Origin: Trichocoleus desertorum NBK24
Lineage (GTDB): Bacteria; Cyanobacteriota; Cyanobacteriia; FACHB-46
DNA: 64,000 nucleotides
Direction: 5' to 3'
Assembly (NCBI RefSeq): GCF_030409055.1
Contig: NZ_CP116619.1
Location: 653,628 to 717,627 of the forward strand
In this document: positions 19,888 to 47,892 of the stretch, one piece after another
How positions within the stretch are numbered: the first letter of the stretch is position 1
Layout of the letters: every line of letters begins with the position of its first letter
The notes under the pieces: model-generated
What the model was told of the DNA's origin: nothing
Database searches by the model: none
Seen by the model: only the letters and a program-made list of their open reading frames with translations
Position numbers and translations under genes: made by a program

Positions 19888-21630
19888 ATGCCTGAGTCAC
19901 CAGAACTTGCTCAATTATTAAAGTTGACCTCCTCCGAGAACTATGTTTCTAGAGAAGAGTTCTTTAAATTAATAGATTATTTACTGCTCAGTCAGCTGAA
20001 CGCACAGACTAGCTTGCAAACTGGATCAGCAAGCAACCAAAAGCTACGGGATCTTTTTCTTCGTCTGCTTGCGATCTTGCAGCCCACAGTCTTCTGTGAT
20101 ATTGGTTCCAGAGATGGGGAGAGTGCAATTCAGGTAAATCACCTTCTACCCGATTGTGAATGTTATGGCTTTGAAGCGAACCCTAAAATCTATGAACAAT
20201 TTTATTCAAAAGTGAAAGACATTAGCCCTAATGTGAATTATTTAAATCTTGCTATTGGGGATGTTAATCATCCCGTAAAACTATTTGCACCCAAAACGAT
20301 TACTAAAGTCTTAGTTGAAAATGAAATTATTGAAGTCAACACACCTGAACCAGAGGATACAGGTAGAACCTCTTTATTACGGCGCAATGAAGATATTACT
20401 TACGAAGAATTTGAGGTGCAATGTTTCAGATTAGATGAATATTGGGTAGAGCAAAAGGTAAATATCACCAAACAACGCCTCGCTTTATGGATTGACGTAG
20501 AAGGTGCAGCAGACAAAGTTTTACTAGGGGCAAACCAATCTCTGCAACAGGCTGCGATTGTGTTTATCGAAGTGGAAGGAATAGAGTTTTGGAAGCAGCA
20601 ACAGCAAGGGCATGATATTGCTCGCTCTCTAATTCATCAAGGATTTATTCCTATAGCACGCGATCGAGAATATTACGACAAACAGTTTAATCTTCTTTTT
20701 GTCAAACAGGACTATCTTGAGGTTGTTTATCCTGCTTTGTTTAACTTGAAAGATGACTTGAATGCCACAAAATTAATTTATGACGTTCAAAACATTTATG
20801 AAAGAGTTGATATTGTTGAGGATTTTTTAAATGAATCTCTTGAAGAATGTCTAAATCCAATCCTCCAGAAAGAATCTACAGTTAAAAACAAACTGAATAA
20901 TAAAAAAAATGATATTTTACTGACTCCCATTTTTTCTAATACCTATACCCTCTGCCATTTACCAATCTACATCCCCTGCTTTAATAATCTCACTTATCTT
21001 AAAAATACAATTGAGCAGCTACATCGGTTGGAATGTCATAATATTATTGTCTTAAACAATGCTTCAACCTATCCACCTTTACTTCAGTATTTTCAGGAAA
21101 TTGAAAAAGAGATAGTAATTATACATCTACCAGAAAATCATGGTCCTCATTTTGTATTTTCGGATAACTTGATTTACAGCTTTTTGCCTCCTTATTTTTG
21201 TCTTACCGATCCAGATCTAACGTTTAATTCATCACTTCCTTCTGACTTCATGGATCAATTGCTTCAGTTAACTGAAGAATTCAAGGTAGGCAAAGCTGGA
21301 TTCGCTTTAGATATTTCCCAGCCAGATCTAATGGTAGAAGAAGAGTTTCTCATTGATAACAAACACTATAAAATCTGGGAGTGGGAATCACAGTTTTGGA
21401 AGCAATCTTTAAGAGAAAATATTTACAAGGCTGAGCTGGATACTACCTTTGCCGTCTACAACAAAAAGTATTTTGATCGCCGTTTTCCCACAAAAAATGC
21501 AGTTAGAGTAGGAAGCAATTTTGTTTGTCGGCATTTACCCTGGTATCAGGACAACCTTTTGCCCAGCGATGAAGAGAAGTTTTATCGCAAGACTAGTCGT
21601 TACTCCTACTACTTAAAGGAAAATTCCTAA
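19888..21630 (+). CDS. FkbM-type methyltransferase fused to a GT-A-like domain
   Basis: 580 residues in two domains. About residues 60-280 are FkbM-like methyltransferase: VFCDIGSRDGESAIQVNHLL, CYGFEANPKIYEQF, ALWIDVEGAADKVLLGANQS. After a helical linker (about 290-345), residues 350-565 look like a GT-A glycosyltransferase: LPIYIPCFNNLTYLKNTIEQ, IIVLNNASTYPPLLQYF and the acidic site CLTDPDLTF. The fusion would couple methyl transfer and sugar addition or two steps on one glycan. Codon use is more AT-rich than in the genes upstream. ATG at 19888 follows about 270 bases without a gene, so it likely has its own promoter. The C-terminal assignment is less sure than the N-terminal. Confidence 0.82.
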   Translation: MPESPELAQLLKLTSSENYVSREEFFKLIDYLLLSQLNAQTSLQTGSASNQKLRDLFLRLLAILQPTVFCDIGSRDGESAIQVNHLLPDCECYGFEANPKIYEQFYSKVKDISPNVNYLNLAIGDVNHPVKLFAPKTITKVLVENEIIEVNTPEPEDTGRTSLLRRNEDITYEEFEVQCFRLDEYWVEQKVNITKQRLALWIDVEGAADKVLLGANQSLQQAAIVFIEVEGIEFWKQQQQGHDIARSLIHQGFIPIARDREYYDKQFNLLFVKQDYLEVVYPALFNLKDDLNATKLIYDVQNIYERVDIVEDFLNESLEECLNPILQKESTVKNKLNNKKNDILLTPIFSNTYTLCHLPIYIPCFNNLTYLKNTIEQLHRLECHNIIVLNNASTYPPLLQYFQEIEKEIVIIHLPENHGPHFVFSDNLIYSFLPPYFCLTDPDLTFNSSLPSDFMDQLLQLTEEFKVGKAGFALDISQPDLMVEEEFLIDNKHYKIWEWESQFWKQSLRENIYKAELDTTFAVYNKKYFDRRFPTKNAVRVGSNFVCRHLPWYQDNLLPSDEEKFYRKTSRYSYYLKENS

Positions 21631-21962: not shown

Positions 21963-24155
21963 GTGACTCAAACCATATTATCTAACGGGTATATCGTGAA
22001 AAACCAAACATCAGGCTTTTACAAATTTTTGATAGAGCAATCCCCAACTCCAATTTATCAGCGTATTATTAAGAACTTGGAGTATATTTTAACAAAACTA
22101 GGAAATGAAGTTGTTATCTCTTACCCAGGGCAGTTTAAAGATGAAATAGACTATCTACAATATATTTCTTCTCAAGAAATAGACTATTGTATCATCACGA
22201 ATAGCTCCTCTTTAATCTCTTCGTACTCTGAAGTTTTCAACGTTTTTATATTTGAGCTAATTAATGTACCAATTATATTTATTCATCATGATAATATATT
22301 TAGTGATTTACATGAGCATGAGAAAATCAAACCAAAGCTAGAAGCTTTTTGCAGAATAAAATCTAAAAGTTTTCATTTTTGCATTGAATATTATAATTTC
22401 TTAGATCTAAAAAGTTTAGGAATTGAGAATGTGTACTCAATTCATCATGCTTCCGAATTCAAGTATATTAAACCTTGCAAAAAATATCTTTATGATGTTT
22501 CGTTCGTAGGGCATGTACTACCAGAACTGGGAAGTACACTTGGAGAAGCTTCATACTCTCATCTACTCAAGGCTGATTTTTGGAATCGTCTAGTTCATTT
22601 AGACAAGGAGCTTGAACAATCAGCTATATCTTTTGCTACCCGCGCAAGTTCTAGTCAAAGTAATTTTATCGATTTTTTGGAAGCAAAATATTTGTATATT
22701 TCCATGCTTCACTCAAACTCTTCTCCTTTTTTCCGGGGAGAGGTAATTAAACGATTAAAAAATGTAAATATCCATATTTTCGGCGGAGATCCTGCCTATC
22801 TAAATGACTTACCTCTAAACCGAAAAATTCAGGAATCAAATATTTTTTATCATCCTGTCACGAAAGATTACTCTGATGCTAAATACATATATGCCAACTC
22901 TAAAATAAATCTCAATATTACATCCTTGCAATTTGATGATGCAGTAATTAATCGAGTTATAGACATTGCCTCTGTAGGCGGGTTTGTACTCACTGACTGG
23001 AAGTCTAAATTAAAATCTCTAACATCCGTTTACGAAGAAATTTCTTACAAAACAATTGATGAGCTTAAATTCAAAATAGACTACTACCTAAAACATGAAG
23101 AAGAACGTCTTGAGATTGCAGAAAAGCTTCATCAGGATATAACGAACAGTTGCAGTTACCATTATATAGCCACCTTTATACTTTCAAAAATTGACTCTAT
23201 GACAAGGACTCAGGAAGAACCTCTTCGCTTAGATTTAGGCTGTGGAGTCTGGAAAGAAGAGGGTTTTGTTGGAGTAGATATTTACGGGGAATCAAAAGTA
23301 GATGTTATTGCCGATTTAAATCGACGTTTTCCCTTTCCAGACAATAGTGTAGATGAAATTAAAGCACACGATATTCTCGAACATCTAAAAGACAACATTC
23401 ATAGTATGAATGAAATCTGGAGAGTCTGCAAACCATATGCAAAGGTAGATATTCGTGTGCCATCAACTGATGGTCGAGGAGCTTTTCAAGATCCAACACA
23501 TATAAGTTTTTGGAATCTTAATTCATTTAAGTACTACTGTGTGGAGTTCCCTGCCTATATTAAACTTTGCAAAAGTTACGGATTTCAAGGCACATTTAGG
23601 ATTTTAACCCTTACAGAGGAAGAGTCGCCGGAGCAGGTCATTCATGTAAGAGCTATATTGGAAGTCATAAAAAATATAGACGCTCAGTCAATTTCAGAAA
23701 ATAATTCTGTTGACTGGAATTTAAGGGAAATAAATCTAATGGTTTTTCCAGATTGGAATAAGTCTGAAGAATTGTTAGCCCAAGAGTTAAGTACTGTGAT
23801 TAGGTCTATTGCAACTCATGCAGACAGAGGGTTAATTTCACTTTTAATACATATTGGGGATTTAGACAGCGAAGATACAGAACTGATGTTAGCAGCCATA
23901 GTAATGGAACTATTCTTAAAAGAGGATATTGATATTGATGAAGGGCCGGAAATCTCTTTTTTTGGAAAACTGAGTCATCTGCAACAGAATACTCTGAAGG
24001 AACGAACTTATTTTCGAGTCCCTTTAGAGAGTGAAAATCAACACTTTATTTCACCAAGCGAATTAGATCCAATTAATATTCCTACCTTTGATTTGAGTGT
24101 CCTTCATCATAAACGAGTGATCTTTCGGGAAGCAAGCACATGGGATTTTGAATAA
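21963..24155 (+). CDS. Three-module protein: CgeB-like glycosyltransferase, methyltransferase, shared C-terminal module
   Basis: 730 residues, GTG start at 21963 with no strong Shine-Dalgarno. Residues 1-400: CgeB/Glyco_trans_1_2-like GT-B (DVSFVGHVLPELGSTLGEAS, IHIFGGDPAYL, YANSKINLNITS, DIASVGGFVLTDW). Residues 418-570: class I methyltransferase-like (LRLDLGCGVWKEEGFVGVDI, IKAHDILEHL, PTHISFWN). Residues 588-715: a module beginning INLMVFPDWNKSEELL, with VIRSIATHADRG and DEGPEISFFGKLSHLQ; the same module closes the glycosyltransferase at 34479. The gene is strongly AT-rich relative to its surroundings and ends 80 bases before the mobile-element cluster, so lateral gain is plausible. Sugar specificity is unknown. 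Confidence 0.8.
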   Translation: MTQTILSNGYIVKNQTSGFYKFLIEQSPTPIYQRIIKNLEYILTKLGNEVVISYPGQFKDEIDYLQYISSQEIDYCIITNSSSLISSYSEVFNVFIFELINVPIIFIHHDNIFSDLHEHEKIKPKLEAFCRIKSKSFHFCIEYYNFLDLKSLGIENVYSIHHASEFKYIKPCKKYLYDVSFVGHVLPELGSTLGEASYSHLLKADFWNRLVHLDKELEQSAISFATRASSSQSNFIDFLEAKYLYISMLHSNSSPFFRGEVIKRLKNVNIHIFGGDPAYLNDLPLNRKIQESNIFYHPVTKDYSDAKYIYANSKINLNITSLQFDDAVINRVIDIASVGGFVLTDWKSKLKSLTSVYEEISYKTIDELKFKIDYYLKHEEERLEIAEKLHQDITNSCSYHYIATFILSKIDSMTRTQEEPLRLDLGCGVWKEEGFVGVDIYGESKVDVIADLNRRFPFPDNSVDEIKAHDILEHLKDNIHSMNEIWRVCKPYAKVDIRVPSTDGRGAFQDPTHISFWNLNSFKYYCVEFPAYIKLCKSYGFQGTFRILTLTEEESPEQVIHVRAILEVIKNIDAQSISENNSVDWNLREINLMVFPDWNKSEELLAQELSTVIRSIATHADRGLISLLIHIGDLDSEDTELMLAAIVMELFLKEDIDIDEGPEISFFGKLSHLQQNTLKERTYFRVPLESENQHFISPSELDPINIPTFDLSVLHHKRVIFREASTWDFE

Positions 24156-24430: not shown

Positions 24431-24460
24431 GGCACTGGTTCTCTAAAGGGTGACTGCTAG
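24293..24460 (+). pseudogene. Truncated IS1-like transposase, zinc-ribbon N-terminus
   Basis: 55 codons, MKCPHCDSEQTVKNG... with CxxC pairs CPHC and CSTCGKRF, the InsA-like zinc ribbon. After TPMAG the frame runs into the terminal repeat of the inserted copy and stops at 24458-24460. Clearly paralogous to residues 12-60 of the next transposase. Not functional on its own. Confidence 0.8.
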
Positions 24461-25498
24461 AATAGCTCCAGTGCATGAATTTCAGCTAATGAGATGTCCT
24501 CACTGTCAAAGCGAACAAACCGTGAAAAACGGCAGAGTCAAGCTGCAAGACCAAAGTGTTCAACAACGATACTTATGCCAAGCTTGCGCTAAACGATTCA
24601 ATGAGCGGACGAATACTCCGATGGCTAGACTGAGAACCCCGGCACTGGTGGTTTCAGCGGCGATCAATGTGCGCACAGAAGGATTAGGAGTGCGAGCCAC
24701 GGGACGCTCCTTTGGCAAATCCCATTCGACGATTATTCGCTGGGAACACCGAGTCGCCCAGCAAGAAAGTCAATGGTCTCCACCTGCGCCTGATGGGGCT
24801 GATGTCACGCTCGAAGGAGATGAGGTGTACACTCGCATCGGCGAGAACCTTCCCCCCCAGCGAATCGCCAGGTTGGACGATTCACTTCATTGAGCGTGAA
24901 AGCCGCTATTGGGTCGATGCCCAAGCGGGACAAAAAACCACTGAACTGTTTGAGCAAGGAACCCAGAAGGCTTGGGAGTGGGCGAAACCTGCTGACTTTA
25001 TCCGCTGGTTTACGGATGGAGAACGACGCTATGGCACTGCTTTATGGCAGCTTGCGAGTGTCCACCTCAAAGCGGGGGAGGTGCACCCCGACTACGGACA
25101 ACGCAAAGTCTGGCGGCAGGGGTTGGAGGTTGCCATGAAGATTAAGGGTTCTCAGGGACACAAACGAGTGGAGTGGGTGAAGGTGGAGCATCCGTTCACC
25201 GCGCTCAATCCTGTGCATGAAGTTCATGCCAATCACAATGAAGCCCAAAATAGTGCCCTCAGAAGGCGTGCGAGTGCTTATCGCAGACGACAGAATCTGT
25301 ATGCCAAGCGAGTCGAGGGCTTGCAACGAGTTCTAGACGTTCAGTGCTTGGTGCATAATTGGGTGCGACCGCACTGGGGACTGGGAAAACACAGGACTCC
25401 GGCAATCGCAATGGGGTACTGTAGTCGTCCGATTTCGATGGATGAAATCTTGACCAGTCGAGGCTTTCATTACTTCACCCCTTAGAAGACCAGTGCCT
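24431..25498 (+). mobile_element. IS1-like insertion sequence, near full length
   Basis: About 1068 bases bounded by GGCACTGGTTCTCTAAAGGG at the left and CCCCTTAGAAGACCAGTGCC at the right, which are imperfect inverted repeats. It contains one transposase coded in two overlapping frames (24450-24893 and 24712-25485). It was inserted into the 5' fragment at 24236-24430; the expected remainder of that older copy is absent on the right, so a deletion or inversion followed. Confidence 0.8.
24450..25485 (+). pseudogene. IS1-like transposase in two frames (+1 shift at C7)
   Basis: First part: zinc ribbon (CPHCQSEQ...CQACAKRF), helix-turn-helix region GLGVRATGRSFGKSHSTII and DDE start EGDEVYTRIGENLPP. 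At the run of seven C (24852-24858) the protein continues one base further on as SESPGWTIHFIERESRYWV, with WFTDGERRYG and the IS1-type C-terminal HANHNEAQNSALRRRASAYR. The overlap of frames is long enough that a programmed +1 shift would give full-length transposase of about 345 residues; a simple indel in the homopolymer is equally possible. IS1-family elements are known to use translational frameshifting, usually -1. Confidence 0.78.
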
Positions 25499-25506
25499 CT
25501 GATCCG

Positions 25507-26015
25507 GCACTGGTCTTCTAAGGGAGGATAGCAGTAAAACCCCTTTGAGTCAGAAGTTCAGGCATCGATAACGGACGATCGCAAAACCCCATTGCCAATA
25601 GCCCTCCGGGCATGGCTTCGCTAGTGCTGGAGTAGTGCCTTTGACTAGCCCCCAGTGTGGACGGACCCAATTATGGATCAGTCGTTGCACCTCCAGTACT
25701 CGTTGTAATCCCTGTACACACTTGGCGTAGAGGTTCTGTCGTCTACGATAAGCACTACAGCGTCGTCTGAGTGCACTGTTTTGAGCTTCGTTATGATTGG
25801 CATGCACCTCAGATACGGCACTGATAGCCGTAAATGGATGCTCAGGGTAAACCCACTCAATCCGCCTGTTGCCCTGAGAACCTTTGATTTTCATGGCGAC
25901 TTCTAACCCTTCCCGCCAAACCTTGCGGTGCTGGTAATCCGGATGAGCTTCTCCTAATTTGAGATAGACACAGGCAAGTTTCCACAATGCTTTACCATAG
26001 CGCCGTTCACCTAAG
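25507..26015 (-). mobile_element. 5'-truncated IS1-like copy in opposite orientation
   Basis: Starts on the plus strand with GGCACTGGTCTTCTAAGGGA, the right-end repeat seen from the other strand, only eight bases (TCTGATCC) after the right end of the previous copy. It holds the 3' half of the transposase gene. Similarity to the other copies stops at about 26010-26020, where unrelated short GC-rich repeats (cttcggcacgctacgccc) begin; this left limit is approximate. Confidence 0.7.
25550..25987 (-). pseudogene. C-terminal half of IS1-like transposase
   Basis: 145 codons beginning WKLACVYLKLGEAHPDYQHR, with VHANHNEAQNSALRRRCSAYR and LIHNWVRPHWGLVKGTTPAL, clearly homologous to the second half of the intact copy at 24450-25485 but divergent by many substitutions. 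The N-terminal half is missing. The C-terminus differs (PCPEGYWQWGFAIVRYR), because a short repeat-like insertion (cctccgggcatggcttcgct) shifts the end. Confidence 0.8.
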
Positions 26016-26146
26016 CCTTCGGCACGCTACGCCCGACACCTGTGCGGGTTTGGTGGATGCCTTATTGCAACTAAGGAGGTTTCTGGCAAAGAATTTACCC
26101 AAGTCTTAAGATCGATGTCATCCTCCTAAAAACAAGGAGCAAGCGT

Positions 26147-27167
26147 TTGGAAAGCCTCAATTGTTCTGAAACCTCACTCACTGCTTCTCAAATTGACGAT
26201 CTATGTTTGGCAGCCTCCAAAATGAGCGGGGCGGCTCGTCGGAGCTATCAAGCGCAGATGACGTTGAAGTATTGTGACGGGAATGCTCGCATGGCTGAGC
26301 GTGTGTTTGGGTGGGGCCGAAACAATATCGAAGTGGGATTAGCAGAACAGCGCAGTGGCATCATTTGTGTCGGCGCTCAAGCGGGCTATAGCGGGAGCAA
26401 ACGATGGGAGGAGAAGCCCTCTGAAGTGGCAGCAGCGTTACGAGCACTGGCAGAAGCGCAGGCTCAACAAGACCCAACGTTTGAAAGCTCAGTCGCTTAC
26501 ACCCGATTAACGGCTCAGCAAGCATTAGCACAACTACGCCAGCAGGGATTTGCTCCAGAGCAGTTGCCAGTGCCTAGTACAATGGCCGTGATTCTCAATC
26601 GGATGGGGTACCGATTGCAACCCGTGGTGAAGGCGAAACCCCAAAAAACTTCCCGAAACAGACGCCATCTTTGACAACATCAGCGCGAAAGATTCCGGTT
26701 CAAACAGCGGTCGTGTCAAACGATTAAGCATTGACTGCAAAGCGACGGTTGCCATTGGGGAATATTCACGAGGTGGAAAAACCAGGGGCAATATCAAGGC
26801 GAGTGATCATGATATGGGCTGTGAGGAAAAATATATTCCCTGTGGCATTGTGGATGAGGACAGTGGACAATTGCATATCTTCTTTGGTAGTTCCTACAAA
26901 ACGAGTGATTTCATTGTCGATACGCTTGAAAATTGGTGGAATGGACTGTCTAGCACTCAGCAAGCAAAGACTAAACGCTTGCAACTGAAAGTAGATAACG
27001 GAGCGGAAAGTAGCGGGATTCGGACCCAATTCCTCAAGCGGATGGTCAAGTTTTCAGACCAAATTGGCAAGCCCATTCAGTTGCTTTATTACCCGCCATA
27101 TCACAGCAAATACAATCCAATTGAACGATGTTGGGGAATTTTGGAACAACATTGGAACGGCACTCAA
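26147..27167 (+). pseudogene. ISAzo13-like transposase, frameshifted and truncated
   Basis: First segment 26147-26674 (TTG start, AAGGAG eight bases upstream): MTLKYCDGNARMAERVFGWG and GIICVGAQAGYSGSKRWEEK are marks of ISAzo13-family transposases. At the A6 run 26643-26648 the frame changes by +1 and continues as LPETDAIFDNISAKDSG, RLSIDCKATVAIGEYSRGG, DHDMGCEEKYIPCGIVDED, then YNPIERCWGILEQHWNGTQ. At 27167 it is cut by the 3' end of an antisense group II intron; the last about 90 residues expected for the family are missing and do not reappear after the intron and IS200 element. Not functional. Confidence 0.85.
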
Positions 27168-29037
27168 ATCGGGATAGGGAGAAACCTCGCAGTTCCCCCC
27201 TCCCACACCACCTGGCATACGGGTCCGTACCAAGGCGGTTCAATCGAGTTGAATGTCAAATCAGTCGCTAAGTTTTGGTAGTCCCTGTCTGTTGAAGTAA
27301 TCGTTGCTTAACGCCAGTTGAACGCCAGGTGTATGGCAAATCCGCCACGGTCCTTTGTTACTCCACGCAGTGGTATGAGCCAACAACGGTGGAACGCCTA
27401 ACGCTATCAACTCCCACTTGCGCCGCCGATAGGTTTTCCATTGTTTCCACAATGCACAACGCAATCGACGACGAATCCAGCTATCGAGGTCTTTGAATTG
27501 CCGGATGGTTTCGGCAAATCCAAAGTAGGCTTTCCATCCTCGCAGGTATCGGGATAACTCGGCTATCCGTTCCTGCCAGTTCACACTTCGAGTCCGGCGA
27601 GTCAATTGCCGCACTCGGTGCTTGAATCGCCGAATGGCTTCATTAGCCACTTTCCGTCGATGCAGTCCTCCGCTTGCTGTGAAGCTGAATCCCAGAAACT
27701 TGCGCTCATGAGGGCGAGCCACTGCGCTCTTGCTCTGATTAATCTTGAGCTTGAGGCGATGGGTGATGAATCGGCTAATGCTCGCCATCACTCGTTCCCC
27801 GGCTCGTTGACTGCACACATAAATGTTGCAATCATCCCCGTAGCGCACAAACTGGTGTCCTCGTCTCTCTAATTCCTTGTCCAGTTCATCTAAAACGACG
27901 TTGGACAGGAATGGTGAAAGTGGTCCACCCTGGGCTGCTCCTTCGTGGCGAGGGCTCACTAAGCCATTCTCTAAAACACCAGCTTCCAGATACGCTCGGA
28001 TTAATTGAAGCGCTCGGACATCGCTAATCCGTTGACTTAGGGCACTCAAGAGGCGGTCATGATTCACTCGGTCGAAGAATTTCTCCAAATCGAGGTCAAC
28101 CACCCATTCATACCCTGCTTTGAGGTAGCTTTGCGCTTGTGCTACGGCTTGATGGGCCGACCGCCGAGGGCGAAATCCGTAGCTGTGTTCAGAGAAGCTT
28201 CTATCCCACTTTGCTTGCAGAACCTGCAAAGTTGCCTGCTGAATCAGGCGATCTAATACAGTGGGAATGCAAAGTTGGCGAACTCCTGTACCATTCGGTT
28301 TTGGGATTGCCACCTTCCTAACCGGCTGTGGTCTGTAAACCCCACGAAGAAGACGTTCCTTGATGTCGAGCCAGTGAGCTTTGAGGTAGTTTGGTAGTTC
28401 CTCGACGGTCATTCCGTCTACCCCAGGGGCTCCTTGATTCTGCATCACACGCTTCAGCGCTGGGAGCAAGTTACTTCGTTGACAAATTTCCTCCATTAAC
28501 GCTGCATCAAACATCGGGCTTTGGGAAGGCTGTCCCGCTATGAGTAAATCAGCCGTTCCCGCATTCGCCCCAGGCTTCACCTGCTCTCGTGCGGGAGACG
28601 CTCCTTGCGAAGTTATCTGCCTTTTAGAATTACTCATAGGTTCCAGGTCTTATTCACCACTCTCGATTGTTTGGACCTTCAGCAATCGCTTGCCTACTAT
28701 GTCCGCTGCTGACTTCTGCGTCAGGGTTAGAGCAGATTGCTCTACTCTCAGTCCGTTTGAACATGCCACAGACCTCCCGGAGTAAGTTCACACACTTTTG
28801 GTACACAACCGCTGGATTTACGTTGCCGGTGCTTGATGGATATGGACTTTGTGATCTCATGCTCACTCGTCCCACCTTCACGCCTCTGATCCAGTTTCTA
28901 TTCGTCGGCTCATACCTTTGCTCCACGCTTCCTTCAGACCTTACCTCGCGATAACGCCCTTGCGCTTCACTACCCTTCACCTCCATCAGGTTGGGAAAGG
29001 ACTTTCACCTCCTAGCGTGTCCACATGTCCGGCACAC
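27168..29037 (-). mobile_element. Group II intron, minus strand
   Basis: Proposed 5' end is GTGTG at 29037-29033, matching the GUGYG consensus, followed by the conserved CTAGGAGGTGAAAGTCC. Proposed 3' end is CCCGAT at 27173-27168 (ends in AY). Upstream of it are recognisable domain V sequence (GAACCGCCTTGGTACGGACC ... GTATGCCAGGTGGTG) and domain VI. Length about 1870 nt, including the maturase gene. The 435 bases between the maturase start and the intron 5' end are ribozyme domains I-III rather than coding sequence. 5' exon side is the terminal hairpin of an IS200-type element; 3' exon side is the broken ISAzo13 gene. Confidence 0.85.
27261..28637 (-). CDS. ltrA: Group II intron reverse transcriptase/maturase
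   Basis: 458 residues. RT core motifs: RKVAIPKPNGTGVRQLCIPT, DLDLEKFFDRVNHDRL, EGAAQGGPLSPFLSNVVLDE (about 232-251) and the active site VRYGDDCNIYV (266-269 YGDD; many group II RTs have YADD). Thumb/maturase X domain: KFLGFSFTASGGLHRRKVAN and LSRYLRGWKAYFGFAETIRQ. It ends at NDYFNRQGLPKLSD with no HNH endonuclease domain, typical of En-minus introns such as group IIC. The reading frame is intact, so retrohoming is possible. It splices its intron and reverse transcribes it into new targets. Confidence 0.93.
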   Translation of the reverse strand: MSNSKRQITSQGASPAREQVKPGANAGTADLLIAGQPSQSPMFDAALMEEICQRSNLLPALKRVMQNQGAPGVDGMTVEELPNYLKAHWLDIKERLLRGVYRPQPVRKVAIPKPNGTGVRQLCIPTVLDRLIQQATLQVLQAKWDRSFSEHSYGFRPRRSAHQAVAQAQSYLKAGYEWVVDLDLEKFFDRVNHDRLLSALSQRISDVRALQLIRAYLEAGVLENGLVSPRHEGAAQGGPLSPFLSNVVLDELDKELERRGHQFVRYGDDCNIYVCSQRAGERVMASISRFITHRLKLKINQSKSAVARPHERKFLGFSFTASGGLHRRKVANEAIRRFKHRVRQLTRRTRSVNWQERIAELSRYLRGWKAYFGFAETIRQFKDLDSWIRRRLRCALWKQWKTYRRRKWELIALGVPPLLAHTTAWSNKGPWRICHTPGVQLALSNDYFNRQGLPKLSD

Positions 29038-29701: not shown

Positions 29702-31171
29702 ATGACTGATTTTTCTGGCAGAGCTTACAAAAGTCCCAAGCTAGATATTCGTGCTCCTGGCAAGCTGAACTTGTCACAATTTCGAGGTTGGCCAGGATAC
29801 CGAATGCTAGCGCTGCTGATCAGTGATGTTTTAGCCTTGGGAATGGCTTGGCAGATTGCGGCACATTTAAATCAATTTTATTCACCCCTCCCACCAGAAC
29901 TAAATTGGTGGAGTTGGTTAGGTCTGCCAAGTCTGTTTTGGTTCTTTGCTGCGGCGACGTTGCTGTTTTTTGCTTATGGAGGGCTGTACTCTTCAGCAAC
30001 GCAGTGGAAAAACTACCTCCGGGCCGGCAAGTTGGTGAGCATGGTTTATTTGCTCTCACTGGTAATGGGCTACTTCTATGATCCCAAGCTTGATCCACCG
30101 CGATCGCTATTCTTTACAGCTTGGTTGAGTAGTGTCGGGTTAGTAATAGGATTTCGGCTATTAACAACCTTGATTTTGCGTCAATTTGAGCAAAGCCAGT
30201 CTCCGATTCCTGTTTTTTTGATTGCTCCAGGCGATCGCTTATCCGCTTTAGCCCATGTATTAGAAAAGCGGCTAAATTTCAAGGGTCAGGATGCTTCACG
30301 GTACCGAGTTGTTGGGGCAGCACTGGCAACTACCGCTCATGCTCCAACGACTCTACAAACCATTTTGGCCTCCAAAGCCAAAGAGGTTCTAGTCGAGAAT
30401 TTACCGGACACTGCACTGGCCTCCGCCCTCTACTGGCAGTTGCGTCGTCAAGGCATTACTTTGCGGTTGTTACCTTCTAGCGTAGATATGTTGCATCGTC
30501 GTGGTTTGCCCGAAATTTTTGCTGGCTTACCGACTCTGCGAGTAGAACCGCGTTTCTTAAGCAGCTTGGAATATGGCTTGAAGCGTTGGATGGATATTTT
30601 TGGGGCTTCGGTGGGAGTAATTCTTTTATCACCTCTCTTTTTGACTGTAGCGATCGCCATCAAATTGTCTTCTCCAGGCCCCATCTTTTTCCGTCAAGAA
30701 CGGATGGGGTTGCATGGCAAAGTCTTTCAGATGTGGAAATTCCGCACGATGGTGACAGAAGCCGAAGCATTACAGGCTCAGTTAGAAGCTTGTAATGAGA
30801 TCAAAGGAGGAGTCATGTTCAAAATCAGGCATGATCCTCGGATTACTCGCCTCGGTCGTTTCTTGAGATCTACTAGTATTGATGAATTGCCCCAACTCTT
30901 TAATGTCTTGCTCGGCCAGATGAGTCTGGTTGGTCCGCGTCCTTTGCCCCTAAGAGATGTGGAGCGCTTTGACACCTGGCACCACATTCGCCACCAAGTT
31001 CTGCCTGGTATTACTGGTTTGTGGCAAGTTTCGGGACGCTCTGATATTGCCGATTTTGGAGATGCTGTGCGGCTAGATCTTTACTACATTGACAACTGGT
31101 CGCTCAACTTAGACCTCGATATTTTGGTAGAAACTTGCCGTATCGTTTTGTTTGGTAAAGGTGCATACTAA
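29702..31171 (+). CDS. Polyprenyl-phosphate sugar-1-phosphate transferase (WbaP/WcaJ-like)
   Basis: 489 residues. Four or five N-terminal membrane helices (about 30-165), a soluble middle domain (about 185-275) and the C-terminal bacterial sugar transferase domain starting [19 protein letters not shown]. Catalytic region: [39 protein letters not shown] (Asp-Glu pair), [15 protein letters not shown] and [15 protein letters not shown]. It starts glycan assembly by moving hexose-1-phosphate onto undecaprenyl phosphate. No operator is evident in the 140 bases before it; its position right after the mobile cluster suggests the cluster split a once continuous glycan locus. Confidence 0.93.
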
Positions 31172-31188
31172 ACTCTCTATACAAGCCC

Positions 31189-33860: not shown

Positions 33861-34322
33861 GTGGGTAACCTAAAAAGTGAGGCTCTAATTACTACTCAAC
33901 ATCTTTACCAACTGCTACCTATGACCAGCTTTAATGACTATATGGAAGTGCGTCAAGCCAAACTAAAGCGTAAACAAAGAACTGCCGCGCTCATATCAGC
34001 AGCATGTTTCATGGGCTCCACTGTTTTTGCGATTGCCAACTTTATCGTTAAAGACTTACAGCAGCTCAGCCAGCCAGTTGAAACTCCTCAAGAATCCATA
34101 AATTCTCATCTAGAGCTCCAAGAGAATGGATATAACCTTGTTCTACAGCGAGAACCCCAAAATCAAACTGCTCTAGATGGTTTAGTGCAAGTTCGCTTAC
34201 AAATGAAGGACTTCCAGGGAGCACAGAAACCTCTACAACAACTCATAAAACTAAACCCCACAAGACAAGACTATCAAGCTTTATTGGAGCAAGTCAAACA
34301 TAAAGCAAGCGATCGCAAGTAA
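33861..34322 (+). CDS. Small membrane-anchored TPR protein
   Basis: 153 residues from GTG 33861, or 133 from ATG 33921 (MTSFNDYMEVRQAKLKRKQR), which is perhaps better because the basic segment directly precedes the membrane helix (AALISAACFMGSTVFAIANF). The C-terminal part carries one or two TPR units (ENGYNLVLQREPQNQTALDG, GAQKPLQQLIKLNPTRQDY). I cannot name a function. It follows the ligase-like gene, also TPR-tailed, so it may interact with it at the membrane. Confidence 0.7.
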   Translation: MGNLKSEALITTQHLYQLLPMTSFNDYMEVRQAKLKRKQRTAALISAACFMGSTVFAIANFIVKDLQQLSQPVETPQESINSHLELQENGYNLVLQREPQNQTALDGLVQVRLQMKDFQGAQKPLQQLIKLNPTRQDYQALLEQVKHKASDRK

Positions 34323-34478: not shown

Positions 34479-36941
34479 ATGAGTGAAAGTGAAATAGTAT
34501 TCAGCCACGAAAATTATATAAATCTCTCGGTTATTCCAATCCACTTTTTCACAATTGTCTTAAATGGCAAACCTTTTATTCAATATCATATTAATATCTT
34601 AAATCAATTGCCCTTCAAATGGCATTGGCATGTTGTTGAAGGAGTTGCTGATCTAAAGAATGATACTGCTTGGAGCGTGAAATTAGGCGGTCATATTACA
34701 GAAGATATCCATCAGAACGGCCTAAGCAAAGACGGTACGACAGAATATCTTAATGAGCTAGCAGAGCTATATCCAGACCAAGTCACTATTTACCGAAAGC
34801 CTGAAGGAATGTTCTGGGATGGCAAGCTAGAGATGGTGAATGCACCTCTAGCAAACATTGATGAAGAATGCCTACTTTGGCAAATTGATGCTGATGAGCT
34901 ATGGACTGTGGAGCAAATTAACACAGTTCGCCATTTATTTTTGGAAAGTCCTGATAAGACAGCGGCTTACTATTGGTGCAATTACTTTGTAGGAGAGAAA
35001 TTATTAATTAGCTCCCGTTACTGCTATGCTCAGAATCCTCAACAAGAGTGGTTAAGAACTTGGCGGTATCAGCCAGGATGTTATTGGGCAGCTCATGAAC
35101 CACCTATCTTAGCACAGCTTAATAGCAACCAATGGCAAGATGTTGCATCGATCAACCCTTTTCTGCATCAGGAAACTGAGGCCGAAGGGTTGATTTTTCA
35201 ACATTTTGCCTATGTGATTCCAGAGCAATTGGAATTCAAGGAAAAGTATTACGGCTATGCTAATGCTTATGCTCAATGGCAAACTCTACAAGCTGAAACT
35301 CGATTTCCGGTTCTTCTGCGCGACTATTTTCCTTGGGTACATGATGAGACCTTGATCGACACAGCTGACTCGCTTGGCATTGTTCCAATTGCTCAAAGGG
35401 AGAAGACTACAAACACTTGGAGGTTTTTAAGCCTGGGAGACCTACAGCAACAACTAACTACGCTAATTCGCCCTCAGCCAACGATTATTATTGACGGCGT
35501 TTTCTTTCAGCTTTACAAAAGTGGGATTGCACGAGTTTGGCGATCGCTATTAGAAGAATGGGTTAATACTGGATTTGCCAAACATCTATTACTATTAGAT
35601 CGAGCTAAAACTGCTCCAATGATTCCTGGAGTTAAGTACCGCCTTATTCCTCCTTACGACTACAACGATATAGAGAGCGATTGCCAAATATTGCAAGAAA
35701 TTTGTGATGAGGAACAAGCTAATCTTTTTATCTCCACTTACTACACTCACCCGCTCTCAACTACTTCCGTTCTAATGGTTCACGACATGATCCCGGAAGT
35801 AGTCGGAACCAATCTAGATCAGCCGATATGGCAAGCAAAGCACGATAGCATTCATCATGCCTCTGCTTATCTTGCGGTCTCCGAAAATACAGCTCGTGAT
35901 CTAATCAAGTTTTTTCCAGAAGTTGATCCTGCTACTGTCACAGTTACCCATAACGGCATCAATCGCTCCTTTACTCCTGCTATCCCCGAAGCTATTAGTA
36001 GCTTCAAGCATAAATATGGCATTTACAAGCCTTATTTTTTGCTTTCGGGAGGCAGAAGGGGTTACAAAAACACTATTGTTTTCTTTCAAGCATTCGCTCA
36101 GCTAATTAGCAAGCACGGATTTGATATTGTTTGCACAGGAGGAACTACTCATCTAGAGGCTGAGTTTAGAGCTTATACCATAGGCACTAAAGTACATATG
36201 CTGTATTTAGAGGATGATGAGTTGCCGCTGGCTTATGCAGGGGCGATCGCTTTAGTTTATCCCTCGCAATACGAAGGCTTTGGTCTACCTATTATTGAGG
36301 CTATGGCTTGTGGCTGCCCTGTAATTACTTCTCCTAATGCGTCAATTCCAGAGGTTGCAGGTCAGGCAGCACTTTATGTACCGTCCAATGATGTCAACGG
36401 CCTAACTAACGCACTTTGTGAGATACAAAAACCGGAGGTTCGCAAATCTCTCGTTCACGCTGGTTTAGAACAGGTCAAGCAGTTCTCATGGGGCAAGATG
36501 GCCCAACAAGTAAGTTCTGCTTTAATTGCGGCCACTCTAATCCCACTCAACTTAAGTGATCGTAACTTGATTGTCTTTCCTGATTGGACTCAGCCAGAGG
36601 AAATTTACTGTACAGAGCTTGCTGATGTCATCCGGGCGATCGCAACTCAATCAGACAGGAGTCACCTAACTTTATTAATCTATAGTGAGTGCATTTCGCA
36701 GGAAGATGCTAACTTGATTCTCTCTAGCATTACGATGGCTCTACTGCTCGACGAAGAACTTGAGGTAAGTGATGGCCCCGAAATTTCACTTGTGGCTAAT
36801 TTACATCCTCTTCAGTGGCAAACTTTAATAACTCGAATTCAAAGCCGCGTTACTCTACCTCATGAGGATCAGAACGCGATTGCTCAAACAGCCGCCGCAC
36901 AACTACCAACTTTTGAGATAGGACAACTTACATCTCTTTAA
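34479..36941 (+). CDS. Large dual-domain glycosyltransferase with shared C-terminal module
   Basis: 820 residues. Residues 15-300: GT-A-like, [20 protein letters not shown] with acidic [16 protein letters not shown]. Residues 340-680: GT-B, GT4-like, with [49 protein letters not shown] and the catalytic loop [20 protein letters not shown]. Residues 695-818: [39 protein letters not shown] and [19 protein letters not shown], the module also found at 23.7 kb. Two catalytic domains imply synthesis of a disaccharide unit or a chain. ATG at 34479 with no strong Shine-Dalgarno; 156 bases before it carry no gene. Confidence 0.85.
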
Positions 36942-36952
36942 AGTCTCAAAAT

Positions 36953-39196
36953 CTATTTTGAATTTACATAGTTCTCCCACATCTGTGTATAGGCATCTTC
37001 CATATTGCGAGTAAACTGTCTAGCATTCCAGAGAGGGGATGTTTGGCGAGAAGCACGCATTTTCCAAGCTACTTGTTGGCGCAATACCGGATCTTTACCA
37101 AAGCGAACTCCCCATTCAACATATTCTTCTGCTGTTGCAGCAATGCCTTCTGTCACCCCAATATTGATCATCATTGTGTAGCTATTGCGGCTGACAAACT
37201 GCTCTCCTACTCTGGTTACCAAAGGAACTCCCATCCAGAGCGTTTCGAGGGTGGTTGTCGCACCATTATAAGGATAGGTATCTAAAACAACATCAGCAAT
37301 ACTCAAATTAGCTCGGTGAACTGCTTCAGCAGAAACCTGAGGTAAAAACTTTAGGCGATCGCTACTAATTCCTTCCGCTTCAGCAAGTTGAATAAACGAC
37401 TCCTTTAACATCTCCTCATTCGCCAAACCCTTCAACAAGAAATAACTATTAGGTATTTCTTTTAGAATTTTCATCTGTAACCGTGCTAAGTCTGGATGCC
37501 GTTTATGACCTTTTTGAGCACTTAAATAGACAACAGCATCATGAGGAATTTCTAATTGATCACGTCGAAGAGTTGGCACTCCGACTTCAAACCCCTCTAC
37601 AGCAATATAGGTGTCAGGTAAGCGCCAGATTTTCTCTGTATAGTAATTCTGTGCGGACTCTGGCAAAACATAGGGATCCGCAATATAGTAATCAACAGCT
37701 GGAATTCCTGAAGCATCCCAGCCTAACCATGTCACCTGAATTGGTGCTGGCTTTAAAGCCATAACTTCGCAAGTGGTATCTAACGTAATACTATCGAGAT
37801 CCACCAAAATATCAATTTGGTCCTGATAGATCGCGTCAGCAATTTCCAAGCCATCTATATCTAAAAATCGAACCTGAGAGCTATTATTCACAAACCAGTA
37901 GTTTGTAAATGCTTCTTCTTGGGGTTGATTTATAAAGTACGTATAAATCTGAAAGCGCTCACGATCGTGATATTGAAACAACCAGCGGGCCAACCAGCCA
38001 ACCGAGTGCTGCCTTAAAAAGCCAGATACATAACCGATTTTCAAGGGTTTAGTACATACAGTAGTATTCTGCAAAACTGTTGAATGATATTGCTGATAGT
38101 GCTCTGCCTGACCCCTTGAGTAATTATGAATGCTAGCTTGGCAAAGCTCACCAATGTGATTGAAGAAATAACGATTAGCTTCTGCTTCATCTTCCATATA
38201 GGGTAAAAAGAAGGTTGATGTAAACATGGATAATGCTGCACCACGATCTAGATCAGTAGGATTTTGCGCAATCAGCGATCGCAACAAATTCTTATGATGC
38301 TGCATTGTCTCATCTGCCTTTTCCCACGCACCCCCAGAAATTGTCAAGGATTTTAATAAAAGGAAGCTACCATAAACTTTTCCAGGCAATGTCTGAGCAG
38401 TACTGTAATATTGCTTGGCAACCTCAACGCCTTTTTCATAGTCACCAGCTTTGTAATAAAACGCAGATAAATGACCCAAAGCTCCTAAGTGTTTTGGATT
38501 GATAGTTAGCCCCAACTCTGCCAAATAAATTGCAACTCCAACTTTGCCTAAGGAGTAAGCAATTTTAATTGCTGGAATGATTAATACCTCAAGCCACGCT
38601 TCTACATCTTCTACATAGGGTAAACAAGATTCCGCAAACTCTAAGACTAACGGATGTAATGGATCAGTCTCTAAAAAGCTTTTTAGAACATTTCTTAATA
38701 AGGGCGAGTTAATACCTTGAGTGTCATTCCTTTGCAGTAATGGAATTAAGTTTAAAGAATCAAGATCGTCCCCAGAAAATATCTTGAGTTGAACCGATAT
38801 TTGTAGAATTTTCAGAAGGTTGTTGACATCTGTTGGTACAATTTCCCGAAGATGGTGCCGAATTGCTAAGGCGATCGCATCTTCCTCTTGAGAGGATAAG
38901 CTTTCTCGCCGTTCCGCCTCAGCCTGTAACACGGCAACTAGCTCAGCAGTACAGGTTGGCAATTGATCTTCATCTACATCTGCTAGGGCTATAAACCAAC
39001 TGGTTTGGGCCTCAGTTTCTTGACCTTGTAAGAGTAGTGCTAAACCTAGATACCAATAGTTCCGTTTGACACTAGAGTCAAGTTCGACAGTTTGCTCGTA
39101 TAGACTGGCAGCCTTAGCATATTGCCCTTGCGCTAAATACTGATCAGCTTGCTGCTGTAGCTTGTATAAATGGTCAGCACTAAACTCAGAAGTCAT
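36953..39196 (-). CDS. SPINDLY / O-GlcNAc transferase-like TPR-GT41 protein
   Basis: About 747 residues from ATG 39196. The frame extends to ATG 39286, but that would run the coding sequence through the pilin terminator hairpin at 39258-39280, so the shorter start is preferred. N-terminal TPR-like helices (YLAQGQYAKAASLYEQTVEL, GALGHLSAFYYKAGDYEKGV), then the GT41 domain: KIGYVSGFLRQHSVGWLARW, QVTWLGWDASGIPAVDYYIA, FLPQVSAEAVHRANLSIADV, LDTYPYNGATTTLETLWMGV. GT41 enzymes add sugars to Ser/Thr of cytosolic proteins. It is downstream of pilA on the same strand, so pilin or another cell-surface protein is a candidate acceptor. Confidence 0.9.
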   Translation of the reverse strand: MTSEFSADHLYKLQQQADQYLAQGQYAKAASLYEQTVELDSSVKRNYWYLGLALLLQGQETEAQTSWFIALADVDEDQLPTCTAELVAVLQAEAERRESLSSQEEDAIALAIRHHLREIVPTDVNNLLKILQISVQLKIFSGDDLDSLNLIPLLQRNDTQGINSPLLRNVLKSFLETDPLHPLVLEFAESCLPYVEDVEAWLEVLIIPAIKIAYSLGKVGVAIYLAELGLTINPKHLGALGHLSAFYYKAGDYEKGVEVAKQYYSTAQTLPGKVYGSFLLLKSLTISGGAWEKADETMQHHKNLLRSLIAQNPTDLDRGAALSMFTSTFFLPYMEDEAEANRYFFNHIGELCQASIHNYSRGQAEHYQQYHSTVLQNTTVCTKPLKIGYVSGFLRQHSVGWLARWLFQYHDRERFQIYTYFINQPQEEAFTNYWFVNNSSQVRFLDIDGLEIADAIYQDQIDILVDLDSITLDTTCEVMALKPAPIQVTWLGWDASGIPAVDYYIADPYVLPESAQNYYTEKIWRLPDTYIAVEGFEVGVPTLRRDQLEIPHDAVVYLSAQKGHKRHPDLARLQMKILKEIPNSYFLLKGLANEEMLKESFIQLAEAEGISSDRLKFLPQVSAEAVHRANLSIADVVLDTYPYNGATTTLETLWMGVPLVTRVGEQFVSRNSYTMMINIGVTEGIAATAEEYVEWGVRFGKDPVLRQQVAWKMRASRQTSPLWNARQFTRNMEDAYTQMWENYVNSK

Positions 39197-39257
39197 AGCC
39201 TCGCTCAATATACTGTTAATAGCTAAATCGCAGATATCAGAAAATTTCAAAAAGATA

Positions 39258-39280
39258 GGGTGGACAGCACTTGCCCACCC
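39258..39280 (-). terminator. Rho-independent terminator after pilA
   Basis: On the minus strand GGGTGGGC pairs with GTCCACCC across a 7-base loop, followed by TATCTTTTTG. It lies 65 bases after the pilin stop and upstream of the GT41 start, so the pilin is probably transcribed at high level alone, with partial readthrough to the GT41 gene. Confidence 0.8.
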
Positions 39281-39344
39281 CAACATTAGAAATATTTTAG
39301 ATTAGATAGCTTGACTCTTTAACCGTCAACGCTAGCTTAGCCGC

Positions 39345-39896
39345 TTACTTAGCATCCAAGACTTTACCTTTATCGGTGCAACCGGTAGCAACGACAGTGC
39401 TGACAGGAGTCAGGTTAGCCTCAGGGGGATTGCCAAGAACAGCCTTGGTTTCACAAAGAATTGCAAGGGTGGTTGCTTCACTAGTTGCGATCACAGTTCC
39501 TAATTCTACCCGACCTGCATATTGTCTTAGAGGAGCCTTGAGAGAGCTACCTCGGTTAATAGCAAGGGTAGACAGACCGACTGTTTCTTTGGCGTCAACT
39601 GTATAAGTATAGTTGGTGGTTTGGGTTTGAATACCAAGACCAAGGTTCTCAACGGTGCTACCGAAAGTAGAGTTCTCTAGGTAGTAAGCTTGTTGAGCTC
39701 GGTTTAGGGAGCCAACGTTTTGCTTCGCTTCAGACTGCTTCGCTTTGTTAGCTTGGTTTAGGAAGGAAGGCAATGCGATCGCAGACAAAATACCGATGAT
39801 GATGATAACAACAAGAAGTTCAATAAGGGTGAAACCTTGATCTTCTTTCTTCTGAGCTAGGTGCTGAAGGAATTTGGCTTGAAATTCGGTCTTCAT
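39345..39896 (-). CDS. pilA: Major type IV pilin PilA
   Basis: 183 residues. A 21-residue basic leader ending KKEDQG is followed by FTLIELLVVIIIIGILSAIA, the type III prepilin signal; PilD-type cleavage is expected after G21, giving N-terminal Phe and Glu at mature position 5 (E26). The C-terminal domain has two cysteines (ILCETKA and ATGCTDKG) for the D-loop disulfide. AAGGAGA lies six bases before the ATG. The pilus subunit in cyanobacteria serves motility, DNA uptake and flocculation. Flanked on the same strand by a methyltransferase and an OGT-like gene. Confidence 0.95.
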   Translation of the reverse strand: MKTEFQAKFLQHLAQKKEDQGFTLIELLVVIIIIGILSAIALPSFLNQANKAKQSEAKQNVGSLNRAQQAYYLENSTFGSTVENLGLGIQTQTTNYTYTVDAKETVGLSTLAINRGSSLKAPLRQYAGRVELGTVIATSEATTLAILCETKAVLGNPPEANLTPVSTVVATGCTDKGKVLDAK

Positions 39897-40022: not shown

Positions 40023-41342
40023 CTATGCCACTTCTACCAGAGTGTATAGATAGATCTCTAAGTCGCTTAGAAGCTGCTTGACCTCCTCAAGCGCCGTTTG
40101 CTCACTAATAGGTTCCAGGGTAATGGGGTTGACTGGCTTCACCACCTGCCAGCGATCCACTAAAGACATAAAAGACTGAGAACCTTCCCAAAGAGGCAAC
40201 AAACAAGCAGCAATATGGCTGTCTACTATAACAGGAGTCTTGGCTGGCTCTGGAATGAAGCGACTGATTTCGAAGGGTTGGCGTGCAGTAATGCAATCAA
40301 TCAGCATTTCTTTGACTGGTAGGGTTTTTAGTTGAGGATGTAGTTGCACTTGGGCACGCTGCCACTCTGCTACATCCCAGTCCGAAACAGGGCTCAAGTT
40401 TGTGGCCTCAGTAGGGTGAGCACACCAAAAGTCTAGTAACCGATTAACTGGTTGCAAAAGTTCAAATAAATGAAGACGTTCTTCTACAGAGATCTCTGGT
40501 AAGCTCATGGCCAGGAAGGAGGGTAGGTCATCAGGATCTTGAAAAAGATCCATGATCTCCCACTGTCGCCACCTCACCATGCTGACAAACTCTAGGTCAG
40601 CAGCTTGGAGGGCGGCAAAAAGTTCTTTGACTGTATAACCCTTATCGCCTTGCAGCAGCAGATTTGCCCGCACTCGCTCCACATCAGTCTCAAAATCGGG
40701 CTTCCAAGCCATTAACTTTAGATAAACATCTGGTTTCAGCGATCGCATAATCTCTCGGACTATCTCGATCTCTAACTCCTCAGGTGGGCCATCCATTAAA
40801 CCCATCATTCTAAAGATTTTTTGCGCCCGAAAATAAAATTCTCGCTGTAGGGAGCTATGCAGGTTCGCTCGAATAATGCCATCGGGTTTGAGCACTGCCT
40901 TCATTGATTGCAAGCCAGCAATCGGATCAGGAAGCAAGTACAAAACTTCATCACAGTTGATGTAGTCGAACTGGAGATTTAGACTGGGCAGTTCTTCGGC
41001 AGTTAAAGTATAAAATTCAGAGTTGTCAAACCCGTGATATTTCAATCGCTGACGAGCTAAGTCTACGGACTTCTCAGAAATGTCCATACCTACGATTTTG
41101 GCCCCTGGATTGGCTTCCGCCAGAATCAAGGAAGTAAAGCCACTACCACAACCCACATCTAAAATCACCTTGTCCTTTGTATCAACAACTTTGTGATTTT
41201 TTAAATAAAATGGGGTTATCAGGTTATGTAAATAAAGAATATTAGTAGCCTTTTTGGGAGATTCCTCCAAGGGAATGGTTGGGTAGGGAGCCATCTCAAA
41301 CTGCTGACGAATTTTTTCGCTCTCAGATGCCTGATTGTTCAT
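40023..41342 (-). CDS. SAM-dependent methyltransferase next to pilA
   Basis: About 439 residues from ATG 41342, which has AAGGAAGGG six bases upstream; an in-frame start at 41429 is rejected because it overlaps the palindrome region and lacks a ribosome site. SAM site: VILDVGCGSGFTSLILAEAN, VGMDISEKSVDLARQRLKYH, YINCDEVLYLLPDP. The C-terminal 230 residues are an extra domain without a name I can give. It precedes pilA on the same strand with 126 bases between, possibly sharing a function with pilin processing or modification. Alternatively it methylates a small molecule or glycan. Confidence 0.85.
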   Translation of the reverse strand: MNNQASESEKIRQQFEMAPYPTIPLEESPKKATNILYLHNLITPFYLKNHKVVDTKDKVILDVGCGSGFTSLILAEANPGAKIVGMDISEKSVDLARQRLKYHGFDNSEFYTLTAEELPSLNLQFDYINCDEVLYLLPDPIAGLQSMKAVLKPDGIIRANLHSSLQREFYFRAQKIFRMMGLMDGPPEELEIEIVREIMRSLKPDVYLKLMAWKPDFETDVERVRANLLLQGDKGYTVKELFAALQAADLEFVSMVRWRQWEIMDLFQDPDDLPSFLAMSLPEISVEERLHLFELLQPVNRLLDFWCAHPTEATNLSPVSDWDVAEWQRAQVQLHPQLKTLPVKEMLIDCITARQPFEISRFIPEPAKTPVIVDSHIAACLLPLWEGSQSFMSLVDRWQVVKPVNPITLEPISEQTALEEVKQLLSDLEIYLYTLVEVA

Positions 41343-41408
41343 GTAAAACCCTTCCTTAAAGTTCTGAATGATGTCCTGAAGTGAGAAACATTGGTAGTTT
41401 GCTCCTAT

Positions 41409-41432
41409 TGTGCCCACATATGTGCCCACATA
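41409..41432. promoter_or_regulatory. Tandem palindromic repeat between divergent genes
   Basis: TGTGCCCACATA occurs twice in tandem. Each core, TGTG-CC-CACA, is an interrupted palindrome; centres are 12 bases apart. It lies in the 170-base gap between the minus-strand methyltransferase-pilA unit and the plus-strand GT gene at 41513, 67 bases upstream of the methyltransferase start. This looks like a two-site operator for a dimeric regulator; the regulator is unknown. Confidence 0.55.
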
Positions 41433-46223: not shown

Positions 46224-46318
46224 CTCGTTCGGATTCGTAACTAATCCGGATTAGCCAGGGGGGACTGAGCTTGGTAGATTAGATCAGCCTATCGCGATCG
46301 CTGGCTTGCACTAATTTT

Positions 46319-47224: not shown

Positions 47225-47268
47225 AAGCGTATTTATTAGCATCGTCAGCTCGCTCGGATGTGTGCCCT

Positions 47269-47838: not shown

Positions 47839-47892
47839 GGAAGTTGTAGGATTGTAGACCGTCATCTTTTCAATTACTGCATCCTTAGAAGT

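Follow-up and report, generated by a model that had tools for sequence, protein, structure and literature searches.

Pilin O-glycosylation has been shown for other cyanobacteria (PMC12288463; PMC8546353), and according to PMC12288463, an Ogt encoded adjacent to pilA is involved in the glycosylation of PilA. The examples reviewed there include ogtA of Nostoc punctiforme (Khayatan, 2017) and the pilin glycosyltransferase of Synechococcus elongatus (Suban, 2022). In Synechocystis, glycosylation of the prepilin can precede its processing (PMC8546353). The window analyzed here, a stretch of 64,000 nucleotides from Trichocoleus desertorum NBK24, resembles the pilA-ogt locus of these cyanobacteria in that a TPR-GT41 gene lies directly beside a major pilin gene (36953-39896). 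It differs from the locus as described in the relevant passage of PMC12288463, where Ogt alone appears, in the addition of shuffled glycosyltransferase (GT) and methyltransferase genes with a constant module, hereafter MOD. The pilA-ogt pair is already known; MOD is an unnamed family so far without named-domain cover. No description of MOD or of shuffled genes adjoining pilA-ogt was found in the literature searched, which took in little of the subscription journals.

Two further systems bear comparison with MOD. Asp1 is a GT-B-like pseudo-enzyme that lacks GT function, takes part in glycoprotein biogenesis, and probably brings enzymes to the serine-rich-repeat adhesin substrate. Polyketide synthases are an example of multi-enzyme assembly lines with docking domains. 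MOD is similar to such docking domains in being constant on variable catalytic units and in its placement at termini or at split and fused junctions, but its fold and size differ from those of the polyketide synthase type, and a docking role for MOD is putative.

Two tails in the window and their host proteins

The original prediction was that two otherwise different glycosyltransferases of the window end in a common tail. BLASTP of the full host proteins 1 and 2 gave 60/161 identical residues (E=1e-26), with the tails aligned end to end and no similarity outside them, and tblastn gave 42% identity over 127-129 aa (E 6e-28), so that the common tail was borne out. The motifs quoted for it (NL-x-VFPDW, VIR-x-IAT, LLI, GPEIS, and LQ) are all present in the tails. 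As regards the catalytic parts, the CgeB-like plus methyltransferase composition of host protein 1 and the GT4 part of host protein 2 were found as described, but for the GT-A part, residues 1-330 of host protein 2, the only Pfam match was sub-threshold (Glycos_transf_2, E 0.17). MOD copy 1 scored 127 bits against the profile, and a third copy was found neither in the window (tblastn) nor in the rest of the 5.46-Mb genome.

Table 1. Features of the window that carry or accompany MOD (window positions).
Feature	Position	Strand	Description and evidence
Host protein 1	21963..24155	+	CgeB-like GT PF13524 (262-407), Methyltransf_11 (449-491), and MOD
MOD copy 1	23718..24104	+	Residues 586-714 of the 730-aa host protein 1; BLASTP/tblastn to copy 2
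Small TPR protein	33921..34322	+	One N-terminal hydrophobic segment; PF14559 weak; 160 bases upstream of host protein 2
Host protein 2	34479..36941	+	Weak GT-A-like N-terminal part, complete GT4 (about 338-680), and MOD
MOD copy 2	36546..36938	+	Residues 690-820 of the 820-aa host protein 2; BLASTP, tblastn, profile, AlphaFold model
TPR + GT41 protein (Ogt-like)	36953..39286	-	PF13844 E 2e-52; convergent with host protein 2
Major type IV pilin-like prepilin, proposed acceptor	39345..39896	-	PF16734 Pilin_GH E 2e-27, PF07963 N_methyl
SAM methyltransferase accompanying the pilin/Ogt pair	40023..41429	-	PF13847

MOD copy 1 lies about 12 kb from the Ogt gene, with mobile elements in between. The stretch between the two MOD genes (24450-28637) contains ISAzo13-type transposase remnants (PF07592) together with a reverse transcriptase/maturase of a group II intron (PF00078, PF08388). 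Such mobile elements may be the reason why copy 1 now stands apart from the pilin locus. Adjoining copy 1 on its other side is a gene (19888-21630) for a 580-aa protein with an FkbM methyltransferase and a GT2-like domain and without MOD; it has no homologue in the 61 MOD loci described below. At a great distance from the pilin locus, the genome also harbors another cluster, in which three large GT41 proteins (frames of 762-1448 aa) are encoded and MOD is absent (1606562-1614263 in contig rather than window coordinates).

A domain family on interchangeable enzymes

A scan of GTDB contigs with a single protein retrieved one relative only, L033, because its pattern step requires near-exact peptides, and a profile search across the phylum was used instead. 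The sample comprised 386 genomes of the cyanobacterial phylum-level group to which the window organism belongs, i.e., one phylum. The profile built from both tails matched 63 of these 386 genomes, in 39 of 143 genera, in keeping with the statement in the original prediction that similar tails exist in other cyanobacterial GTs. Extraction of 20-kb loci and iteration of the profile over their ORFs yielded 99 domain matches; the 88 proteins that contain them are encoded in 61 loci and in the window itself. MOD thus defined spans 121 positions with the core N-x3-FPDW-x3-E, in which the N is invariant and F, P, D, W, and E are conserved at 94-98%. The architecture of host protein 1 recurs in a homologue at one of these loci (L093), and homologues of host protein 2 aligning over >60% of its length occur in 19 of the 61.

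The claim that the module has no named domain also held: neither tail gave a meaningful Pfam or NCBIfam match, and the MOD profile retrieved nothing from all PDB sequences at E<=10, leaving the tail outside any known named domain in these collections. When 66 diverse MOD sequences were compared with the families, no GT family appeared among the 25 listed, and none was matched by more than one member. Viral contigs, phages, and plasmids contained no match, and MOD as a virus- or plasmid-borne element was rejected. Weak MOD-like matches in Ogt-like GT41 proteins (E 0.4-5) were scattered over the TPR regions and were judged to be chance.

A recognizable GT or methyltransferase accompanies MOD in 84 of the 88 carriers, the other four being without a recognizable partner. 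By Pfam and local labelling, the partners are GT4 (47 proteins), assorted methyltransferases (29), GT41 (23), FkbM methyltransferase (14), GT-A-like (13), GT2 (9), CgeB-like (6), DUF5672 (6), and GT11 (2). Attachment of the tail to differing catalytic parts, as predicted, thus extends to GT and methyltransferase families of many kinds. A restriction of the tail to GTs was not supported, as many carriers are methyltransferases and some of them lack a GT (e.g., L037 7785-9239 and L069 9669-10760); for this reason, MOD is better labelled a tail of glycan-building enzymes than a glycosyltransferase tail. Four carriers (L055:9055-11721, L062:6618-9329, L058:10338-11909, and L040:13804-15396) have ∼400-760 residues upstream of MOD without a Pfam match, which, judged by context, might represent families of glycosyltransferases or methyltransferases not yet described.

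MOD is C-terminal in 67 of the 99 copies. An N-terminal MOD is followed by TPR-GT41 in 10 of 12 cases, and an interior one by another MOD, TPR-GT41, or other parts. Three CgeB-like/GT41 multi-domain proteins (L086:13028-15262, L087:7048-9264, and L089:8952-15959) end in a broken MOD followed by another MOD; the broken copy consists of the first 35 positions, a gap of ∼30-40 residues, and then the remainder, and represents either a MOD interrupted by an insertion or a subtype that has diverged.

Exchange of partners is frequent. Among 741 pairs of C-terminal MODs that are >=50% identical, the preceding 350 aa have no detectable similarity in 424, and in the extreme case, MOD identity reaches 89% between proteins from L071 (GT41) and L075 (DUF5672). 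On the MOD tree, poorly resolved as the domain is short, at least 20 changes of partner type are needed, as compared to a minimum of 5 and to 39 with shuffled labels. MOD has in part been passed on together with its partner and in part been joined to new ones, which is what a reusable joint would show. Repeated partner swapping, together with the tandem MOD copies found in some proteins (near-identical in L037 and L088), would also suit a passive stretch of homology, or a folding cap, which persists because catalytic cassettes can recombine through it and which has no docking or binding role. Such a passive role is highly improbable, since the copies have a median pairwise identity of only about 44% and yet the core motif is strictly kept, a pattern indicating that purifying selection acts on function and not on DNA identity.

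Predicted fold and relation to GT-B enzymes

AlphaFold2 models were built from three sequences (window and L033 only). The tail of host protein 2 (pLDDT 73, pTM 0.70) and the L033 module (pLDDT 80, pTM 0.78) were both predicted to form strand-helix-strand-helix-strand-helix-strand, with strands at 8-13, 43-48, 80-84, and 101-104, in agreement with the Rossmann-like alpha/beta fold anticipated by the original prediction. The best PDB fold match of both models in Foldseek was Asp1 (5vaf; E 2e-4 and 4e-4, TM 0.6-0.67), followed by Gap1, SenB, trehalose-phosphate synthase, VldE, the C-domain of glycogen synthase (2bfw), and other GT-B enzymes or C-domains. Receptor entries also appeared in the lists; one of them, 8cxo, states a glycogen-synthase fusion construct, and the others are presumably constructs of the same kind. 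The predicted MOD fold hence resembles one half of a GT-B enzyme, as far as models from three sequences can tell.

The resemblance to the C-terminal donor-binding domain of GT-B enzymes (PF00534/PF13692, 2bfw) lies in the order of strands and helices and in the repeated fold matches, including those to the glycogen synthase C-domain, trehalose-phosphate synthase, SenB, and VldE. It would accord with MOD being a degenerate GT-B half that still binds nucleotide sugar and completes or regulates the neighboring catalytic domain. This is improbable, for MOD differs from that domain in lacking a Pfam match, a profile-profile match to the GT4 C-domain of its own proteins, and EX7E. The hhalign alignment of MOD with the GT4 C-domain had a probability of 0.2, leaving descent from GT4/GT41 C-domains without sequence support, and no two conserved Glu residues eight positions apart were found among the MOD columns conserved at >=70%. 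Likewise rejected was the idea that sequence comparison might reveal MOD as a duplicate of the GT4, GT41, or methyltransferase domains (profile-profile probability 0.2-6%). MOD is also found on methyltransferases without a GT and behind complete GT-B domains. In host protein 2, the GT4 is complete by its Pfam/TIGRFAM extents, to about residue 680, and MOD begins after it; the module is therefore not the GT-B C-terminal helix region, which was ruled out also by its presence on methyltransferases. MOD is best read as a stand-alone Rossmann-fold domain, shaped in the models like the C-terminal half of GT-B and probably non-catalytic.

The likeness to Asp1/Gap1 of the accessory Sec system (5vaf, 5vae, and 6oyc; TM 0.57-0.67) raises the alternative that MOD is an acceptor- or sugar-binding module, recognizing the prepilin or the growing glycan and bringing each enzyme to its substrate. 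Asp1 as the best match of both models, the listing of Gap1, and the linkage of MOD to the pilin gene agree with this, as does the occurrence of MOD on sugar-acting enzymes generally, including methyltransferases that would act late; the tandem copies would fit an avidity role. On the other hand, conservation is strongest in FPDW-x3-E, where strand 1 ends, and this patch consists mainly of hydrophobic residues and shows no obvious cluster for binding sugars. The recurrent position of MOD beside TPR-GT41 described below fits protein docking at least equally well, so that acceptor binding seems somewhat unlikely. Moreover, Asp1 and Gap1 have ∼500 aa in several domains as compared to the 121 aa of MOD, share 10-13% identity with it, come from another phylum, and act on a serine-rich adhesin substrate, and the MOD profile detected no sequence homology to them among PDB sequences (E<=10). 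The comparison is one of analogy, not of membership. Asp1-like binding of acceptor or glycan and a remnant donor-binding half are the most serious alternatives to docking.

Linkage to the pilin-Ogt locus and the TPR-GT41 junction

The genes neighboring MOD genes are constant across loci, and it is the MOD proteins themselves that vary. The typical layout, to which the window conforms, is a small TPR gene, one or more variable MOD genes, and then a convergent Ogt-like GT41 gene, a pilin gene, and a methyltransferase gene. Homologues of the window TPR-GT41 protein, whose gene adjoins the pilin ORF at a distance of 58 bases, occur in 54 of the 61 MOD loci (48 over >60% of the length), those of the pilin in 42, of the small TPR protein in 40, and of the methyltransferase encoded at 40023-41429 in 21. 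A convergent Ogt-like GT41 gene lies within 6 kb in 44/62 loci, and in 27/62, the window included, a small TPR gene is found upstream at no more than 1.5 kb, on the same strand. The small TPR ORF of the window was listed from a GTG at 33861, but the ATG at 33921 fits the homologue length of about 130 aa. After the pilin locus follow genes for a thioredoxin reductase-thioredoxin fusion, a DppC-like permease, and a ROK kinase (44853-48822), which also flank the locus in distant genomes (15, 10, and 8 of 61 loci, respectively); this is a conserved chromosomal flank beside a highly variable cassette.

Across genomes, an Ogt-like GT41 is present in 60/63 MOD genomes as against 39/323 others (Fisher p 1e-39, with genomes counted as independent of phylogeny). 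The distance between MOD and GT41 is <=12 kb in 49/60 genomes, the remaining 11 having MOD >12 kb from Ogt or on another contig, and MOD lies <=30 kb from the best pilin in 49/61, as compared to about 1% expected for random placement in a 6-Mb genome with a 30-kb radius. MOD is found beside a major pilin gene and a TPR-GT41 (Ogt) gene in about 80% of MOD genomes. The Ogt-pilin pair is also kept in 22 of 36 testable non-MOD genomes, and hence pilin glycosylation in itself does not require MOD. Twenty pilin-Ogt loci that have no MOD gene next to them (16 taken from non-MOD genomes and four from genomes with MOD elsewhere) gave no diverged MOD at E<1, and a small TPR gene was recognized in only two of them. 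As such loci hold neither gene, bar these two TPR genes, MOD and the small TPR gene are parts of one version of the pilin-Ogt locus.

It could be argued that MOD genes make a cell-surface polysaccharide and that their nearness to pilin and Ogt is conserved synteny only. In the window, a Bac_transf initiating transferase gene (29702) and a Wzy_C ligase-like gene (31189), in the span 29702-33759, stand just upstream, and the first MOD protein sits among exopolysaccharide-type GTs. However, homologues of the Bac_transf and Wzy_C genes were found in none of the 61 MOD loci, which is to be set against the frequencies of Ogt-like GT41 and pilin given above, and MOD tracks Ogt across genomes, making a role confined to surface polysaccharide quite improbable.

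In a fixed order X-MOD-TPR-GT41, MOD is placed between variable enzymes and a second TPR-GT41, and three states of this junction were observed. The parts are fused in one chain in 5 loci (e.g., L033 with 1841 aa and L054 with 1745 aa); they are split in 10 loci, where MOD ends the first protein and GT41 is the next gene; and in another 10, MOD stands at the start of the GT41 protein, most of these loci also having other enzymes that end in MOD. Such alternation between fused and split forms is classically taken as evidence of a functional complex. By this pattern, MOD is at the contact between the variable enzymes and TPR-GT41, from which we infer physical docking. The original suggestion that the tail recruits its enzymes to the same complex or acceptor gains support from this junction and from the adjacency to major pilin and TPR-GT41 Ogt genes in most genomes.

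In our reading, MOD is the invariant part of otherwise interchangeable cytoplasmic enzymes, both GTs and sugar O-methyltransferases, whose genes lie at the pilin-Ogt locus. Our leading explanation, to which we give an even chance of being correct, is that MOD is a non-catalytic docking module joining these interchangeable sugar-building enzymes to the TPR-GT41 machinery of pilin glycosylation. TPR-GT41 (Ogt) would put the first sugar on the prepilin, the putative acceptor in this organism. The variable MOD-carrying enzymes would be held to the TPR-GT41 protein, the candidate partner, through MOD, and perhaps also to the small membrane TPR protein. The GTs and O-methyltransferases held in this manner would then extend and methylate the pilin glycan in assembly-line fashion. 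The literature on prepilin glycosylation fits such a cytoplasmic, nucleotide-sugar-dependent addition.

MOD provides a single profile by which candidate enzymes of any catalytic family can be picked out in many genomes for the part of the pilin glycan that follows the initial sugar added by Ogt, and TPR-GT41 is a testable partner for it. More tentatively, the locus might represent a cyanobacterial pilin-glycan assembly line in which a constant GT-B-like docking domain lets GT and methyltransferase cassettes pass between strains, giving species-specific methylated pilus glycans, plausibly under phage or kin-recognition pressure. This unnamed domain family would also offer the engineering of sugar assembly lines a natural joint at which parts could be swapped.
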